A DNA stretch of 64,000 nucleotides from Methanofervidicoccus sp. A16 (GTDB lineage: Archaea; AGJL01; Methanococci; Methanococcales; Methanococcaceae), in assembly GCF_003351865.1 (NCBI RefSeq), contig NZ_CP022242.1, positions 124,001-188,000 of the forward strand. The letters run 5' to 3'. Shown here one piece after another: positions 271 to 9,740 of the stretch; position 1 is the first letter of the stretch; every line of letters begins with the position of its first letter. Position numbers and translations under genes: made by a program. The notes below the pieces were generated by a model. The model was not told where the DNA came from. It searched no databases and saw only the letters and a program-made list of their open reading frames with translations.

Positions 271-1123
271 AGTTTTCACCTTATTTTTTAGTACATTATT
301 GTGTTAGTTGATAAATATGATTAAGTATAATATAAATTAATTTAGGATAGTAAAAAATAACTATTATACAGTTAACTATAAAAATAGATAAGTATCTCTT
401 ATAAATGTTCATGAACACCTGATAAAAAGTGAATGGTCTTTTCTAACTCTTGGATTCTATTTTTTATACCATAGAGCTGTGATAAAAACCAAAATTAAAA
501 ATAGATACATATTAATCCTAATTTTATTTTTAACAACTTCTTTTAATTTTTTAATTCTTATTTTATTTTTTATGAAATTTTTTGGTGAGAACTAGATTAA
601 AAATATATCATTATAATGGATAACGAAATCCTTATGGGACAAAATTAAAATTTCTGTTATTAATTTCTATAGCCTACTTGAGATACTGAAAAGAAAAGAA
701 TGATTTCTGCCAAATATCCTCCAATATCTTTCATAATTATAGAGTTTTTAATAATAAGGGGATTTCATCCTTTTTAAGTATTTAGAATTGTTATTTTTTG
801 TTTTCATTAATTTTTTTATTTAAAATATTTTAATAGTCGTTATTTTAGTATCATTCTTTTGTTTATAACCATAATATAAAAATAAACTAAAAAATAATTC
901 TGATAATCATTTTAAAATTTATATTCTCGATGTAGGATTGAGTTTTTTATTTTAAAAACAATTTTTTTAATATTTTTATTTATCATATTGCATTAGTATA
1001 TTTTTATATTTTGATTAAGAGATTAGGATATCCTCTCCATTATATTTTTTATTATCATAACTCTAAGTTATTTACTTTAACAGAAACAAAAGTATTGCTA
1101 TAATTCAATTTTGGTGAATATGT
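271..1123. other. AT-rich intergenic region, no gene seen
   Basis: About 850 bases between the divergent NAC gene and the helicase operon. Both strands are full of stops and oligo-A/T runs. I see no ORF, tRNA or clear member of the dispersed repeat families. Only the GGTGA ribosome-binding site at 1113-1117 in front of the helicase ATG is convincing. The region must hold the promoters of both flanking genes, but I could not pick out a TATA/BRE pair with confidence. Confidence 0.5.
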
Positions 1124-4100
1124 ATGCCTATTAAAGAGGGCGATATAGTAAAAGGGCTTTTCTGGGATGAACCTTTTAAGGTGGTGAAAATAAGTGGAAA
1201 AGGAAGAGGTGTTTATATAGTAGGATATAAGATCCATTCAAGAATATGGAAAGAATTATTTTTAACAGCAGATGATTTGGAAAAAATTGAAAGGATGAGT
1301 ACTTCCACATTTATAGAGGATCCTGAGAATATTCGTCTATTTATGGAGGCTATCAAGATAAGATATGGATACCTCTTTAACCCACTGCTTGCGGTATGTG
1401 TCTCTAACATAGATCCTCTGCCCCATCAGATAGAGGCTGTTTATAAGTATATTCTTAGAGAGCCTCGTATAAGAACACTTCTGGCAGATGATGCAGGTGC
1501 GGGAAAAACTATAATGGCTGGTCTTGTTATAAAGGAGTTAAAAATGAGAGGGATGGTAGAGAGAATATTGGTGGTTGCACCGGGACATTTAAAGGAGCAG
1601 TGGAGGAGGGAGTTGTGGGAAAAGTTTTACGAATCCTTTAAGGTTATTGATAGAGGGGATTTTAGGGAGGAGGATGGAGACAACCCATGGGAGAGGTACA
1701 ACCAGGTGATAACCTCTATAGACTTTGCAAAGCAGGAGGATATTCTTAAGAGTTTGGAGGAGGTGTCCTGGGATCTCGTTGTGGTGGATGAGGCCCATAA
1801 GATGGCTGCATATATATACGGTAAAAGGCGGAAGGAGACGGACCGTTATAAACTTGGGAAGGTTTTATCCAAGACCTCTGATCATCTCTTATTTTTAACT
1901 GCAACACCTCATAAAGGAGATCCTGAAAACTTTAAGTTACTTATGGATCTATTAATGCCTGGATTCTTTCCAGATTATGAGAGTTTGGAGAATTTCCTGA
2001 AAAATAGAGATAGTGCCCTATTTATAAGGAGGTTGAAGGAAGATTTAAGAGACTGTGATGGGAGGCCTCTATTTACAAAGAGATATCCTATAACTGTAAA
2101 GTTCAATCTTTCAGATAAGGAGTTGGAACTTTATTACAAGGTTACTCAGTACGTGCTAAAGATATACAACAAGATAGGAGTAGAATATCCTAGGAGGGGG
2201 AACATAGCCTTTGCCCTTACGATCCTCCAGAGGAGAATGGCATCAAGTACCTATGCTTTATTACAATCCCTTAGGAGGAGAAGGAAGAGGTTGGAGGAGT
2301 TGTTAAAGGAGGGATCAACTTATAGGCATGCATGGGATGTAGATGTGGATTTTGAGGATGATATCGATGATGAAGAGAGGTGGAGAAGGGAAGAAAAATG
2401 GGAAGTTCTAACTGTGGCGGAAAATATAGAGGAGTTAAAAGAAGAGATAAAGACACTAGAAAAACTTATTGAACTATGTGAGGAGATCTTAGAAGAAGAG
2501 GAGGAGGTAAAACTTAAGGAACTTAAAAAGACTATTGGTAGAATATTTAGGGGCCTAGATGGAAAGAATACTAATTCCAAGATTCTCATATTCACAGAGT
2601 CAAAGGATACCTTGGATTATCTTGTAGAGAAGTTGAAGGGATGGGGTTATAAGGTTACTTGTATTCACGGTGGAATGAAAATGATGGAGAGAATTGAAAG
2701 GATGAGGGAGTTTCAGGAGAAGAGTGAGATAATGGTTGCCACTGAGGCTGCTGGAGAGGGTATTAACTTACAGTTCTGTAATGTAATGATAAACTACGAC
2801 ATTCCCTGGAACCCCAACAGGCTTGAACAGAGGATGGGGAGGATACATAGGTATGGACAACGTAGAGATGTGTATATATTCAACTTTGTTGCAGGAAATA
2901 CTCAGGAGGGGAAGGTGCTTATAAGACTATTGGAGAAACTTAAGGAGATCAGGGATATACTTGGGCGAGATAGAGTATTTGATGTTATAGGAGAGATACT
3001 GGCACATGAGAAGATAGATCTACCTGAACTTATCCTTAAGGCTGTACTTGAGGGAAGGAGTGTAGAGGAGGAGATTGAGAGGTTAAAGTGCAGTGAGGGG
3101 GTAAAGAGGGTGGTAAGTGGTGACATAGTTAACAAACCTACAGATATTCATGAGATTAAAGAGATGATGGAGAAGGCTAGGAAGAGATTGGATGTGGAAG
3201 ATATAGAGAGGTTTTTTAAAAGAGCCTTTGAGAAAGCAGGAGGTAGGCTCACTGAGGATGGGGGTATTATAGTCATAAATAATAGTATATTTGGAAAAAT
3301 ACCTGAGAAGATAAGGAAGATCGGGGAGAGTGAGGAGTTTAAGAAGAAGTTTGGTAAGTTGAAAGAGGATTATCCAAAGATAACATTTAGGAGGGGTATT
3401 GCAGTAGATAAAAATGTAGAGTTTATAACCTTTGGACACCCTCTCTTTGAGGCTGTACTTGAATGGACATTGAGAGAATTTAAGAAGGGAGCGGGGGAAG
3501 GAGGAGTATTTAGAGATCCCTCTGGGAGATTGAATGGATATATTGGGTTCTATATAGGGGAGATAGAGAATGGTAAGGGAAAGGTTGTAGGTAGGAAGGT
3601 CTTTGGAATATATATACCTAAGGAAGGTGGAGGGTTTGAGGAAGTGGATTTTGATGTATTTCAGCGTCTTCTTCCAGTAGGGGCTAGTAGTAGTCTAAAA
3701 TTTAGAAGTTATTACGAAGAGAGGTTACTATCTAGTGCTATAGATGTGATGGTTAGATTCAGGGAGGATATTCTTGAGGAGAGGAAAAAGGTTGTAGAGA
3801 TAAAAGAGAAGGGCTGGGAACATTTTCAAAATGAATATACAGGTTTAGATGGGAATGATAAATGGGAGAAATATATAGAGTCCTGGAAGAAACTTAATGA
3901 GGAGACAGAGAAAGAGTTGAACCTTTCGATATCTAAACTAGAGGTTTTAACTGTTATCAGAGTGGTGCCTTACGAAGATATAGAGGATGATGATGAGGAG
4001 GTGTTAGAAGAAGATATGTCAGAGAATAGAGAGATCGAGGAGATAGGGATGAAGATTGCTATAGAATTTGAGAGGTTCGAGGGGCGAAAACCTGAAGATG

Positions 4101-4426
4101 TTTCACGGGATAATTTAGGTTACGATATACGTTCAGTAGGTAAAGATGGGGAAGTTCGATATATAGAGGTCAAAGGAAGAGTAGGAGAGGGAGATGTTGC
4201 TCTAACTTATAATGAATGGCTTAAGGCTAAGGAGTTGGGAGATAGGTACTATCTCTATGTTGTAAGTAATGCCCCGACAGATCCAACATTGTATATAATA
4301 AGGGATCCTGCCAAGAAGATAGAACCTGTGAAAAAGGTTGAAATCAGTACTAAGATGATAGTACCTGCAGAGGAATGGAAGAAAAAGAAAGAGAAAGTAT
4401 GGAAGAAAAATTTGATATTAAAATAA
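1124..4426 (+). CDS. SNF2/SWI-type helicase with C-terminal DUF3883 (NO VEIN-like) domain
   Basis: An 1100-residue superfamily 2 helicase. Visible motifs: Walker A DAGAGKT (residues 123-129), DEAH (222-225), motif III LTATP, and motif V/VI ending QRMGRIHRYGQ (569-579), as in COG0553 ATPases. A charged linker follows, then at about 970-1080 a DUF3883-like domain with GYDI (999-1002) and EVKG (1015-1018). That spacing resembles a PD-(D/E)XK nuclease core, so this domain may be the nuclease or DNA-sensing part (inference). GGTGA lies 6 nt before the ATG. It heads a three-gene operon with a DNA methylase and a DUF499 ATPase, which suggests invader-DNA recognition or translocation. The coding strand is unusually rich in GAG, AGG and GGG codons. 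The helicase identity is firm; the defence role is inferred from its neighbours. Confidence 0.9.
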   Translation: MPIKEGDIVKGLFWDEPFKVVKISGKGRGVYIVGYKIHSRIWKELFLTADDLEKIERMSTSTFIEDPENIRLFMEAIKIRYGYLFNPLLAVCVSNIDPLPHQIEAVYKYILREPRIRTLLADDAGAGKTIMAGLVIKELKMRGMVERILVVAPGHLKEQWRRELWEKFYESFKVIDRGDFREEDGDNPWERYNQVITSIDFAKQEDILKSLEEVSWDLVVVDEAHKMAAYIYGKRRKETDRYKLGKVLSKTSDHLLFLTATPHKGDPENFKLLMDLLMPGFFPDYESLENFLKNRDSALFIRRLKEDLRDCDGRPLFTKRYPITVKFNLSDKELELYYKVTQYVLKIYNKIGVEYPRRGNIAFALTILQRRMASSTYALLQSLRRRRKRLEELLKEGSTYRHAWDVDVDFEDDIDDEERWRREEKWEVLTVAENIEELKEEIKTLEKLIELCEEILEEEEEVKLKELKKTIGRIFRGLDGKNTNSKILIFTESKDTLDYLVEKLKGWGYKVTCIHGGMKMMERIERMREFQEKSEIMVATEAAGEGINLQFCNVMINYDIPWNPNRLEQRMGRIHRYGQRRDVYIFNFVAGNTQEGKVLIRLLEKLKEIRDILGRDRVFDVIGEILAHEKIDLPELILKAVLEGRSVEEEIERLKCSEGVKRVVSGDIVNKPTDIHEIKEMMEKARKRLDVEDIERFFKRAFEKAGGRLTEDGGIIVINNSIFGKIPEKIRKIGESEEFKKKFGKLKEDYPKITFRRGIAVDKNVEFITFGHPLFEAVLEWTLREFKKGAGEGGVFRDPSGRLNGYIGFYIGEIENGKGKVVGRKVFGIYIPKEGGGFEEVDFDVFQRLLPVGASSSLKFRSYYEERLLSSAIDVMVRFREDILEERKKVVEIKEKGWEHFQNEYTGLDGNDKWEKYIESWKKLNEETEKELNLSISKLEVLTVIRVVPYEDIEDDDEEVLEEDMSENREIEEIGMKIAIEFERFEGRKPEDVSRDNLGYDIRSVGKDGEVRYIEVKGRVGEGDVALTYNEWLKAKELGDRYYLYVVSNAPTDPTLYIIRDPAKKIEPVKKVEISTKMIVPAEEWKKKKEKVWKKNLILK

Positions 4427-4466
4427 TAAAAATAATTAAAATATTATTTAATTTTAAAGTGATACT

Positions 4467-7169
4467 ATGGAAGATAAAAGATATATCGAGAAAACATTTC
4501 CCATAAGGGAGGTAGGGGAGATCTCTGCAAAGGAGAAGAACATCAGGCACGGCCATATATCTACACTTCATATATGGTGGGCTAGGAGACCTCTGGCAGT
4601 CTCCAGAGCTGTAAATTACGCCTCTTTAATTCCTGCTCCAGAGGATCTCTTGGAGGAGGAAAAGAGGAGGCAGTTTATTATAGACCTGGCTAAATGGGAG
4701 AATTCGCTCAACATGACTTATATTGACAAGGGGAGGAGGGATATTCTCTCTGCAAATGACGGGGTGCCTCCAAAGGTATTGGATCCCTTTGGAGGTGGAG
4801 GTGCTATACCTTTAGAGGCTTTAAGGCTAGGCTGTGAGGTTCATACCTTAGACTACAACCCAGTTGCAACATTGATATTGAAGTGTACTCTTGAGTATCC
4901 CCAGAAGTACGGGAGTAAGGTGGATAAGGAGGAGTTTGTAGATAGAAGTGTAAGTCCTCTGGTTAGGGATGTAGAAAAATGGGGTAATTGGGTTTTAGAG
5001 GAATCTAAGAAGGAGATAGGTAAGTTCTACCCTCCAGATGAGGACGGCTATATCCCTGTAGGGTATATTTGGGCTAGGATATTACCCTGTCAGAATCCCC
5101 TCTGTGAGGCGGAGATACCACTGATGAGACAGTTCTGGCTGGCGAAGAAGAGTAATAAGAAGGTGGCACTGTATCCCTATGTAGAGGATGGGGAGGTTAA
5201 GTTCAGGATTGTTGGAGATGGGTACGAGGAGTGGCCCGAAGGTTTCGATCCCTCCAAGGGGACAGTTTCAAGGGCTATAGTGACCTGTCCAGTGTGTGGT
5301 TATACCATAGATGGAAATACTACTAGGAGGTTGTTCCAGGAGGGGAAGGCTAGGGAGAGGTTAGTTGCAGTGGTTTTGCATAAACCTGGGAGGAGTGGGA
5401 AGAGGTACAGGATAGGGACGGAGAGGGATATTGAGGTGTTCAGGGAGGCTAAGAGGTACTTAGAGGAGAAGAGGGAGAGGTTGATGGAGAAGTGGTGGAT
5501 GGATCCTGTGCCTGATGAGGAGATGAATCAGGAGGATCCTAATACAGTTGCAGGGAGAGGGTATGGGTTTAAGAGATGGGGGGATCTCTTCAATTCTAGG
5601 CAGAAGTTGGCACTGATAACATTTACAGAGAAGGTTAGACTGGCTTATGAGAAGATGATTGAGGAGGGTTATGAGAAAGAGTATGCTAAGGCGGTGGCGA
5701 GTTATTTGGCGTTGGGAGTGAGTAGGTTAGCCGACTATAACTCTTCTTTAACTGTTTGGGCTGTTGCAGGGGAGTTTATAGCCCATACCTTTGGAAGGCA
5801 GGCATTACCTATGGTATGGGATTATTTTGAACTAAACCCATGGAGTGAATCTACTGGAGATTGGAATTCATCAATAGATTGGATTATTAAAGTCCTATCC
5901 CACCTAACCCAAATCCCCCCAGTAAAACGCCAAAAAAAACCCATTATCCCAAAGATATCCCAAACATCAGCAACAGAGATACCCTATCCAGATAACTACT
6001 TCGATGCAGTAATTACAGATCCACCTTACTACAATAATATCAACTATGCTGAACTATCAGATTTCTTCTACGTTTGGCTAAAGAGGAGTGTAGGAGATCT
6101 CTATCCAGATCTATTTATAACACCATTAACACCAAAAACCAAAGAAATAGTTGTAAATCCTGTAAGGCATAAGGGAGAGAAAGAGGCAAAGAAATTCTTC
6201 GAGGAGATGCTCAAAAAAGCATTTAAAGAAATATCAAGAGTACTAAAACCCAACGGAATAGCAGTAATAGTATATACCCACAAATCCACAGAGGGCTGGG
6301 AGACTGTTATCAAATCACTCTTAGACTCGGATCTCCTCGTTACCATGTGCTGGCCCATAGATACAGAGATGAGAGCAAGACTTATAGCAAAGGACTCAGC
6401 AGCTTTAAGATCCTCCATCTACATCGTATGCAGAAAGATCGAAAGAAAAAACATCGGCTGGCTACAGGAAATAAAGAAAGAGTTAAGGGAACATATCCCT
6501 AAAAAACTAGATCGACTATGGAATGAAGGTGTCAGGGGGGCAGATTACTTCATCTCCGCAATAGGCTCTGGAATAGAGGTATTCGGAAAATATAAGGAGA
6601 TCAGAGACTATGAAGGTAATAAGATAGACATATCCCAGATGCTAGAGATTCTCCGAGATATGGTTACAGACTATGCAGTAAGAAGAATACTCCACAACGG
6701 TATATCCCAGGAGTTGTCGCCCCTTACAAGGTTCTACATACTCTGGAGATGGAGTTATAGAGAGTCCAGGGTACACTACGATGACGCCAGAAAACTAGCC
6801 CAATCTGTAGGACTCTCCCTAGAAAGAGAGTGGAACAGAGGATTCATAAAGAGGGAGAAAGAGTACATTAGAGTTTTAGGACCTCAAGATAGAAAACTAA
6901 ACGAAATAAAAGTAAGGGACCTTATAGACGAGATACACAAGGCTCTACTCCTCTGGAGACATAACAGAAAAGACGAACTCCTAGAACTCTTAGAAAACAG
7001 TAGATACCTAAGTAATGGGGTATTCTACCAGGTGGCACAGGCTATCTCCGAGACCCTCCCAATAGACAGTACAGAGAAAAGACTACTGGACGGATTCCTA
7101 AGTGGAATAGATAGGTTAATAAGAGAGGTAGAAGATATTAAAGAGCAGAAGAAACTAACTGATTACTAA
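4467..7169 (+). CDS. DUF1156 adenine-specific DNA methylase with Zn ribbon (COG1743-like)
   Basis: A 900-residue putative N6-adenine (or N4-cytosine) DNA methyltransferase. DUF1156 occupies the N-terminus (PIREVGEISAKEKN, then HIWWARRP). The SAM-binding motif DPFGGGG is at 106-112 and the catalytic DPPYY at 518-522. Between them lie two Cys pairs (CQNPLC and CPVC) that look like the zinc ribbon of COG1743 proteins. It lies 40 bases after the helicase and ends 12 bases before the DUF499 ATPase gene, so the three are probably co-transcribed. Base and codon use changes sharply near 5780-5880: upstream codons favour AGG, TTG and GTG, downstream ones AGA, CTA/CTC and GTA. A recombination joint between the SAM-binding and catalytic halves is possible. 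It would protect self DNA by methylation if the operon is a defence system (inference). Confidence 0.88.
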   Translation: MEDKRYIEKTFPIREVGEISAKEKNIRHGHISTLHIWWARRPLAVSRAVNYASLIPAPEDLLEEEKRRQFIIDLAKWENSLNMTYIDKGRRDILSANDGVPPKVLDPFGGGGAIPLEALRLGCEVHTLDYNPVATLILKCTLEYPQKYGSKVDKEEFVDRSVSPLVRDVEKWGNWVLEESKKEIGKFYPPDEDGYIPVGYIWARILPCQNPLCEAEIPLMRQFWLAKKSNKKVALYPYVEDGEVKFRIVGDGYEEWPEGFDPSKGTVSRAIVTCPVCGYTIDGNTTRRLFQEGKARERLVAVVLHKPGRSGKRYRIGTERDIEVFREAKRYLEEKRERLMEKWWMDPVPDEEMNQEDPNTVAGRGYGFKRWGDLFNSRQKLALITFTEKVRLAYEKMIEEGYEKEYAKAVASYLALGVSRLADYNSSLTVWAVAGEFIAHTFGRQALPMVWDYFELNPWSESTGDWNSSIDWIIKVLSHLTQIPPVKRQKKPIIPKISQTSATEIPYPDNYFDAVITDPPYYNNINYAELSDFFYVWLKRSVGDLYPDLFITPLTPKTKEIVVNPVRHKGEKEAKKFFEEMLKKAFKEISRVLKPNGIAVIVYTHKSTEGWETVIKSLLDSDLLVTMCWPIDTEMRARLIAKDSAALRSSIYIVCRKIERKNIGWLQEIKKELREHIPKKLDRLWNEGVRGADYFISAIGSGIEVFGKYKEIRDYEGNKIDISQMLEILRDMVTDYAVRRILHNGISQELSPLTRFYILWRWSYRESRVHYDDARKLAQSVGLSLEREWNRGFIKREKEYIRVLGPQDRKLNEIKVRDLIDEIHKALLLWRHNRKDELLELLENSRYLSNGVFYQVAQAISETLPIDSTEKRLLDGFLSGIDRLIREVEDIKEQKKLTDY

Positions 7170-7181
7170 AAGGTGTTTAAT

Positions 7182-9740
7182 ATGAAGGCATTCAATCAGA
7201 TAGCCATACCCCATGAGGATATAAGGGAAGGAAGGCTAACGATGGATATCTTCGCTGCCGATCTCTGGCAGGTGGTAAAAGGTACGGCACCGAGGGACTA
7301 CCAAGATCCAGATGTCTTCTTTAGAAAGACCCACATCACAAAGGGTTTAAAAAATATCTTAGAAGTTGCAGAATCGAGACTTAAGGGAAGGGGAGGGGAT
7401 GCAGTTATCCAACTACATACGCCCTTTGGAGGGGGTAAGACCCATACATTAATTGCACTCTACCACAAGGCAAAAGAGTGGGGAGCCAATGTTGTAGTAT
7501 TTGAAGGTACAAACTTCGATGCAAAGGAGACGAGGATATGGGAGGAGTTAGAGAGACAACTGACAGGGAAAGTTGAGATAACCAAGGGAAACACCTCCCC
7601 AGGGAAGGAGAAACTTATTAAAATCCTTTCAGAAAATGCACCGGTACTGATACTGATAGATGAACTCTTGGAGTATGTAACGAAGGCTGCAGGAGTAAGG
7701 GTTGGAGATTCAAATTTAGCCTCTCAGACATACGCCTTTATCCAGGAGTTAACTGAAGCAGTATCTGCCCTTGGAAACACTATGTTAGTTTTAACACTCC
7801 CATCAAGTAATTTAGAACAGTACGATGAATATGCAGAGATAGCACTTAACAGACTTCAGAGGATTGTAGGAAGGACCGAAAGAATATATACGCCAGTAAG
7901 TGATGATGACATCGTCCATGTAGTGATAAAGAGACTCTTTAGCAAAATCGACAGGGAGGAGGCTAAGAAAATTGTAGATGACTTTGTAGATTACATAGAA
8001 AATGAGGGAATCCTCTCCAAGGAGGAGGCTACCCACTATAGAGAGAAGTTCTTAGAGAGTTATCCCTTTAAACCAGAGGTAATAGAGATACTTTACAAGA
8101 GATGGGGATCTTTCCCAAGTTTCCAGAGGACAAGGGGCGTCCTAAGACTCCTATCCCTAGTTATCTACGATATGTTAGACAAAGGGGTACCATTTATAAG
8201 ACTTGGAGACTTCGATCTAAGTAACGAGGAGATAAGGAGGGAGTTGATAAAACATATCGGCAACCAGTGGGACAGTATAATATACAGTGATATAACCTCC
8301 GAAGAATCTGGAGCGAAGAAGGTAGATAGAAATTTAGGGAGTGCCTATATCCCCTACAAACTTGGAACAGTTGTAGCCACCACTATATTTATGACCTCAT
8401 TCTCTGGAAGGGGGGAGAGGGGAATAACGATGAAGGAGTTAAAACTCTACGCCTCCCTTCCAATATTCCCAACGAGTGTAATAGATACAGTACTTGCCAG
8501 CCTTAGGGAAAAACTCTTCTACCTATCAGATGAGGACCTCTACTTCTTAACACAGCCTAACCTAAACAAGATAATCCTGAACTTCGAGGACAACATATCT
8601 ATGGAGGAGTTATACGAGGAGGAATTTAAACTGTTAGAAAATTACATCTCAGATAAACCTAAGTTTAAGGTATTTATACATCCAAAGTTTCCAAGGGAGA
8701 TACCAGACGATACCAACCTAAAACTCCTTATAATGAAGAGTGGTAATGTAGAGAGGGAGTTCGTAGAGAAGTGTGGAGAAAATCCAAGGATATACAAGAA
8801 CACCCTTATATTCTTATGTCCAGAGGAGGATTACAGAAGAAACTTCCAGAGGGCTATAAGGAGATATCTGGCTCTAAAGGGAATAAGAGAAAAGAAAATG
8901 GATGAACTGACACAATTACAGAGGGAAGAGGTAAAGAAGAAATTTAAAGATATCAAAAACCTCCTGTATTCGGAACTGAGATACTTCTACAGAAAGATAC
9001 TCCTTCCAACTAGGGATGGGTTCAAGGTAGTAGATCTGGGACACCCCCATCCAGCCTCAAAACGTAAATTGGACAATGTAGTTTATGAGGAGTTGAAATC
9101 TGAAGGGGAGATCCTGGAGAAAATATCCCCTGTAATAATAAAGGATAACTATCTCAAGGATAGGGACTATTTAGAGATAAAAAAACTCTACGATTCATTT
9201 TTAAAGATCCCAGGAAATCCAAGGATAGCATCTAAGGAAGGTTTCATAGAATCCATAAAGAAAGGTGTAAAAGAGGGAATATTTGGATATGGGAAGTTAA
9301 TAGATGGAGAGATAGAAGTTATCACAATTGGAGAAACCCCAGATGTCCAACTATCTGACGATGAGATAATAATAAAACCTGAACTATGTATAAAGGAGGA
9401 GAAAATAGAAGAGAAGAAGGGGGAAAAACTCCCAGAAAAACATTCGACAAAGGATGTAGAGAAAAGTATTCAAAAGGTAGAACATTCACCTACGGTAAAA
9501 GTAGAAGAGAAAGTAGAAGAAGATAAATATAGAAATATAACATTGAAACTTAAAATCCCACCTGAACCTGAAAAGATACTTATCATACCCCGTATAGTCA
9601 AATATCTAACAGGTAAATTTAAAAACTGTGAGATAGAGGTCACCATCAAGGCAAAGGATGGGGAAATAAGTAAAGCAGAATATGAAAATGCTATCGTAGA
9701 AGCACTTAAACAGTATAACATCCCGATTGATAAAAAATAA
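7182..9740 (+). CDS. DUF499 P-loop ATPase (COG1483-like), partner of the methylase
   Basis: An 852-residue predicted ATPase. From the ATG chosen here, Walker A FGGGKT is at 82-87 and the Walker B acidic pair DE is at 160-161 within a LILIDE strand; both are typical of DUF499. The C-terminal third is charged and ends with a small domain (PPEPEKILIIPRIVKYL). A GTG at 7173 is in frame, but AGGTG at 7171-7175 is better read as the ribosome-binding site for the ATG at 7182, 6 nt downstream. DUF499 ATPases are known to be encoded next to DUF1156 methylases and SNF2 helicases, as here. Its biochemical role is unknown to me; coupling ATP hydrolysis to DNA binding by the complex is inference. Confidence 0.88.
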   Translation: MKAFNQIAIPHEDIREGRLTMDIFAADLWQVVKGTAPRDYQDPDVFFRKTHITKGLKNILEVAESRLKGRGGDAVIQLHTPFGGGKTHTLIALYHKAKEWGANVVVFEGTNFDAKETRIWEELERQLTGKVEITKGNTSPGKEKLIKILSENAPVLILIDELLEYVTKAAGVRVGDSNLASQTYAFIQELTEAVSALGNTMLVLTLPSSNLEQYDEYAEIALNRLQRIVGRTERIYTPVSDDDIVHVVIKRLFSKIDREEAKKIVDDFVDYIENEGILSKEEATHYREKFLESYPFKPEVIEILYKRWGSFPSFQRTRGVLRLLSLVIYDMLDKGVPFIRLGDFDLSNEEIRRELIKHIGNQWDSIIYSDITSEESGAKKVDRNLGSAYIPYKLGTVVATTIFMTSFSGRGERGITMKELKLYASLPIFPTSVIDTVLASLREKLFYLSDEDLYFLTQPNLNKIILNFEDNISMEELYEEEFKLLENYISDKPKFKVFIHPKFPREIPDDTNLKLLIMKSGNVEREFVEKCGENPRIYKNTLIFLCPEEDYRRNFQRAIRRYLALKGIREKKMDELTQLQREEVKKKFKDIKNLLYSELRYFYRKILLPTRDGFKVVDLGHPHPASKRKLDNVVYEELKSEGEILEKISPVIIKDNYLKDRDYLEIKKLYDSFLKIPGNPRIASKEGFIESIKKGVKEGIFGYGKLIDGEIEVITIGETPDVQLSDDEIIIKPELCIKEEKIEEKKGEKLPEKHSTKDVEKSIQKVEHSPTVKVEEKVEEDKYRNITLKLKIPPEPEKILIIPRIVKYLTGKFKNCEIEVTIKAKDGEISKAEYENAIVEALKQYNIPIDKK

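Follow-up and report, generated by a model that had tools for sequence, protein, structure and literature searches.

The three genes at positions 1124–9740 of the window, the 64,000-nucleotide stretch of Methanofervidicoccus sp. A16 analysed here (genome G000 in the comparisons below), very probably constitute an intact HMA system, a kind now also termed type-1 BREX-related (BR), acting in a restriction-like manner in which HmaB would mark, HmaC would sense and HmaA would cut. In our view the operon most likely encodes a working, restriction-like defence of an ordinary kind. The HMA type was introduced in 2021 as a candidate defence system of helicase, methylase and ATPase, for which 1,638 instances were counted across 26 phyla (Payne et al. 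2021, PMC8565338), and its loci were renamed type-1 BR in 2026, with a helicase carrying an active C-terminal PD-(D/E)XK domain (PMC12839542, NAR 2026); BR systems of all types occur in 3592 taxa (PMC12839542). Antiphage activity of the helicase-nuclease is credited to Liu et al. 2024 (doi 10.1111/1751-7915.14524) in the citation given by PMC12839542, and a 2013 paper already counts DUF3883, fused to an SNF2 helicase beside DUF499, among novel REase domains (PMC3710099). The system and the DUF3883 nuclease call are thus both prior knowledge, so that the preliminary description falls short in novelty, and the operon is a copy of a known kind that adds no new category.

All three open reading frames are intact and lie on the plus strand, in the order helicase, methylase and ATPase (Table 1). 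They are separated by 40 bases (hmaA–hmaB) and 3 bases (hmaB–hmaC, with hmaC counted from 7173), with no embedded genes between them and no specificity or restriction subunit beside them. The preliminary description had given this same arrangement, namely three close same-strand genes for a helicase with DUF3883, a DUF1156/Zn-ribbon methylase and a DUF499 ATPase without an adjoining restriction or specificity gene, and the open reading frames, the Pfam domains and the conserved cysteines agree with it. Its coordinates also stand, except for the start of hmaC, which is probably ATG 7182 rather than GTG 7173, since relatives begin with MK.F and AGGTG precedes this ATG. The name Hma, which it had given to such a triad, proved correct in the comparison with the PADLOC models that it had proposed as a check, where HmaA (E 8.5e-188), HmaB (E 5.3e-136) and HmaC (E 3.4e-125) were the best models, one for each protein of the operon. 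The GC content of the operon is 40.5%, against 35.7% downstream.

Table 1 Features of the HMA operon, with positions in the window
Feature	Position	Strand	Description
hmaA	1124..4426	+	1100 aa; Snf2-family helicase with putative C-terminal PD-(D/E)XK (NOV_C/DUF3883) nuclease; proposed effector; PADLOC, Pfam
HmaA helicase ATPase motifs	1496..1798	+	Walker A GAGKT (125–129), DEAH (222–225); in at least 97% of 75 HmaA proteins
HmaA nuclease domain (predicted)	4001..4393	+	residues ~960–1090; AlphaFold2, Foldseek
HmaA catalytic core GYD1001 ... E1015-V-K1017 (predicted)	4124..4174	+	E972 upstream, E1031 downstream
hmaB	4467..7169	+	900 aa; DUF1156 amino-type DNA methylase; proposed self-marking enzyme; PADLOC, Pfam
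HmaB Zn-ribbon cysteines C208, C213, C274, C277	5088..5297	+	each kept in at least 97% of 33 relatives
HmaB catalytic motif IV DPPYY (residues 518–522)	6018..6032	+	kept in at least 97% of 33 relatives
hmaC	7182..9740	+	DUF499 AAA+ ATPase; 852 aa from likely ATG (855 aa from GTG 7173); proposed sensor and scaffold
HmaC Walker A GGGKT (86–90), Walker B DE (163–164)	7428..7664	+	numbered from GTG 7173

Upstream of hmaA lies an 844-base intergenic gap (window 280–1123, 19% GC; in G018, locus L087, the corresponding gap has 72 bases), for which no coding or repeat explanation was found, the only matches being low-complexity and AT-rich. A lone N6_Mtase/Eco57I-like methylase gene on the minus strand (G000:C1:119679–121133; L096:5679–7133) is located ~2.9 kb outside the left edge of the window, with the housekeeping genes guaB and NAC lying between it and the operon.

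Besides the SNF2-rel_dom and Helicase_C domains, Pfam identifies in HmaA a C-terminal NOV_C domain (DUF3883, residues 971–1059, E 3e-24), and the closest solved chain by sequence is RapA. No solved relative of the nuclease domain was found by sequence search alone. The AlphaFold2 model of residues 940–1100 (mean pLDDT 88, from 73 sequences) is predicted to contain, in order, a helix, three strands, a fourth strand, a helix and a strand, with D1001 opening one strand and E1015-x-K1017 placed on the next. The top Foldseek matches in the PDB are Holliday junction resolvases (2eo0, 4tkk, 2wcz; Hjc), the SPARDA nuclease and I-Ssp6803I, after which come EcoRV and further members of that superfamily; the E-values for the isolated domain are modest (best 8e-3), with nearly all the leading hits belonging to one superfamily. 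E972, D1001, E1015, K1017, T1028 and E1031 are invariant in all 75 HmaA proteins. In the model, residues 940–1100 thus fold like PD-(D/E)XK nucleases, and form a putative C-terminal nuclease. The preliminary description had read the GYDI...EVKG pair in DUF3883 as a PD-(D/E)XK core and had named structure prediction of residues ~960–1090 as a check; the predicted fold is of the nuclease type and, together with the invariant catalytic residues, bears this reading out. The type-1 BR helicase is also described with an N-terminal Tudor domain and an inactive REase after the helicase core (PMC12839542), and residues 1–75 and 640–950 of HmaA are present and align with relatives.

HmaB matches DUF1156 (1e-22) and, weakly, N6_N4_Mtase in Pfam, and its four conserved cysteines back the Zn-ribbon that had been noticed earlier. 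From established methylase motifs, the DPPY sequence implies an amino methylase, most likely one acting on N6-adenine. The PADLOC paper called HmaB an m5C methylase (PMC8565338), whereas the DPPYY found here would point to an amino (N6A/N4C) methylase instead.

HmaC matches DUF499 in Pfam (5e-41), and its Walker motifs are kept in at least 95% of 37 HmaC proteins, being invariant in the 35 that were aligned. No N-terminal HEPN extension is fused to it. The best PDB match of the predicted model (mean pLDDT 85) is the BrxC of Acinetobacter BREX (9zll_D; E 5.6e-6, prob 1.00, 576 columns), with an rmsd of 5.8 and a TM of 0.52 by target length, and the next matches are ORC/Cdc6 chains. This BrxC-like predicted fold supports, from structure, the published kinship with BREX.

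For the biochemical activities, the methylation motif and the trigger we infer the following order of events. HmaB would methylate a motif on the host DNA, probably at N6-adenine; HmaC, as a BrxC/ORC-Cdc6-like AAA+ protein, would assemble on DNA and read the unmodified state of the invader; HmaA would then be recruited, translocate by means of its Snf2 motor, and cleave the foreign DNA through the PD-(D/E)XK domain at its C-terminus. The BrxC-like character of HmaC, and the resemblance of the HmaA motor to RapA and to the BREX and DISARM helicases BrxH and DrmD, would also suit a BREX-like defence without cutting, in which the invader either has its replication blocked or is sensed by the HmaC complex, with no role for the nuclease other than as a backup or in abortive infection. 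We consider this unlikely given the invariance of the catalytic residues in HmaA, and neither PglZ nor a HEPN domain is there to act as an alternative effector; cleavage by HmaA is the reading that we prefer.

Within the family, three of 22 genomes carry a close HmaC (G000, G012 and G018, the last corresponding to Methanothermococcus sp. SCGC AD-155-E23, L116). In G018 the operon is flanked, as in G000, by NAC and TldD, one at each end, and in G012, where only the hmaC–TldD side is assembled, the hmaC side of the site is shared. Because the operon occupies the same site in G000 and G018, its inheritance within this small clade is vertical and not a fresh acquisition. It is only in genomes with the operon that NAC and TldD neighbour each other; in the sister genome G008 they are flanked by NadE and SepRS, two genes that lie far from each other in G000, so that no clean empty insertion site can be read. 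A recent transfer of hmaC was also considered, from its 73% identity to a Guaymas deltaproteobacterium, but is weakened by the 68–69% identity of other bacteria and archaea over the same 473 residues.

In the sister family, close HmaC proteins are present in G022, G027 and G032, and decayed copies are also found: besides its close HmaC, G027 contains another hmaC interrupted by many stops, and in G026 a decayed copy lies beside the same neighbours as in G027. In the G026 copy (L112:10845–12101, minus strand), a single 418-aa open frame fuses the N-terminal part of HmaA, up to residue 230, with its nuclease end (912–1080), which may be a chance deletion or a retained nuclease module. The gap between hmaA and hmaB exceeds 300 bases in 32 of the 64 relatives with measurable gaps, and embedded genes can lie there; the genes embedded between hmaA, hmaB and hmaC in the sister-family loci include OLD/GajA-like and AbiL/PDC-M38-like genes in G027 (L108) and a MADS8-like ATPase in G022 (L109). 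A search of GTDB genomes with the HmaA alignment gave 511 candidate stretches with HmaA relatives in bacteria and archaea, the best 80 of which come from many phyla in the two domains. The HmaA tree mixes archaeal and bacterial proteins, with at least seven label changes forced by well-supported branches. A search of genome contigs with HmaC alone found nothing; HmaC relatives were found in 147 plasmid records, all below 60% identity, and in no phage records.

Between G000 and G018, hmaA and hmaC each show a dN/dS of ~0.14 and have changed roughly twice as much at the amino-acid level as the housekeeping genes next to them; selection maintains the system, which evolves faster than its surroundings. 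That the operon is a non-functional relic in this strain is very improbable: decayed copies do exist in the sister lineages G026 and G027, but here all three frames are intact, the key motifs are kept and the dN/dS is low. A housekeeping function, whether replication, repair or transcription, with a RapA-like helicase, an ORC/Cdc6-like ATPase and a regulatory methylase, would account for the resemblances to RapA and ORC/Cdc6, for the purifying selection and for the site common to G000, G018 and, as far as assembled, G012. Such a role is nevertheless hardly to be expected of an operon that is absent from most relatives of the same genus and family, whose decayed copies are tolerated, whose gene tree crosses domains, and whose locus in a relative has defence-like genes (OLD/GajA-like, AbiL-like) embedded in it. 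The operon occurs patchily, has been transferred widely and has in places decayed, so there is no conserved housekeeping synteny across relatives, a feature that the preliminary description had considered as a point against defence. As far as sequences, predicted folds and genome comparisons can tell, its defence reading has withstood the available tests.

The stem of the thermophilic methanogen clade in the HmaA tree measures 0.94 changes per site. There is a small chance that this clade's compact HMA without HEPN forms a branch of its own, which diverges fast and whose methylation motif and trigger could differ from those of the tested bacterial HMA. We found no test of an HMA system in an archaeon in the literature. 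A compact, intact HMA with neither embedded genes nor a HEPN fusion offers a convenient minimal system for studying the methylation motif and the effector role of the helicase-nuclease.

Compared with other systems, the HmaA Snf2 helicase resembles DrmD of DISARM, but the HmaA model outranks DrmD in PADLOC, the NCBIfam DrmD model gives 402 bits against a cut-off of 610, and the operon has no DrmB or DrmMI gene. A genome-wide search in which the control was detected found no PglZ, and BREX proper and type-3 BR are thereby ruled out. BREX combines PglZ with BrxA/B/L-type genes, and the latter are absent from the operon; type-3 BR has a standalone PglZ and a nuclease-free helicase, whereas HmaA has a predicted nuclease domain. 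Type-3 BREX has homologous counterparts of all three core proteins (BrxC, BrxXI, BrxHII; PMC12839542), but here PglZ is missing, the operon is not accompanied by any further BREX gene, and the putative nuclease is fused to the helicase.

Type-2 BR is distinguished by a DUF3780 gene and an HKD nuclease on the helicase, and the operon has no extra small gene and no HKD hit, which speaks against this type. A general layout similar to type 2 is seen in sister genomes such as G008 (L090), where the gene order is DUF1156 methylase, DUF499 ATPase, small gene and helicase; the type-2-like ATPases of these genomes are longer than the HmaC of the window and only ~23–25% identical to it. In L090, L091, L113 and L114, from related genomes, a different DUF499 system has a small gene (~145–152 aa; the two copies scanned gave none of the Pfam domains) preceding a NOV_C helicase, and L091 also has an EVE-domain gene.

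Four of the features by which type-1 BR is recognised are found in the window: a same-strand operon of three genes, a DUF499 protein with intact AAA+ motifs and a predicted BrxC-like fold, a DUF1156 methylase, putatively of the N6 type, with the DPPY motif and a long insert between motifs I and IV, and an Snf2 helicase whose C-terminal domain is PD-(D/E)XK-like in both predicted fold and residues. The operon shares with type 1 the tripartite DUF499/DUF1156/Snf2 composition, the C-terminal PD-(D/E)XK of the helicase and the absence of PglZ (PMC12839542). In that type, 1370 of 2446 taxa have an N-terminal HEPN domain on the ATPase and the remainder lack it (PMC12839542), as does HmaC here, and the architecture fits type-1 BR without HEPN. 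With HMA as defined in PADLOC (PMC8565338), the operon has the same three genes and no categorical difference.
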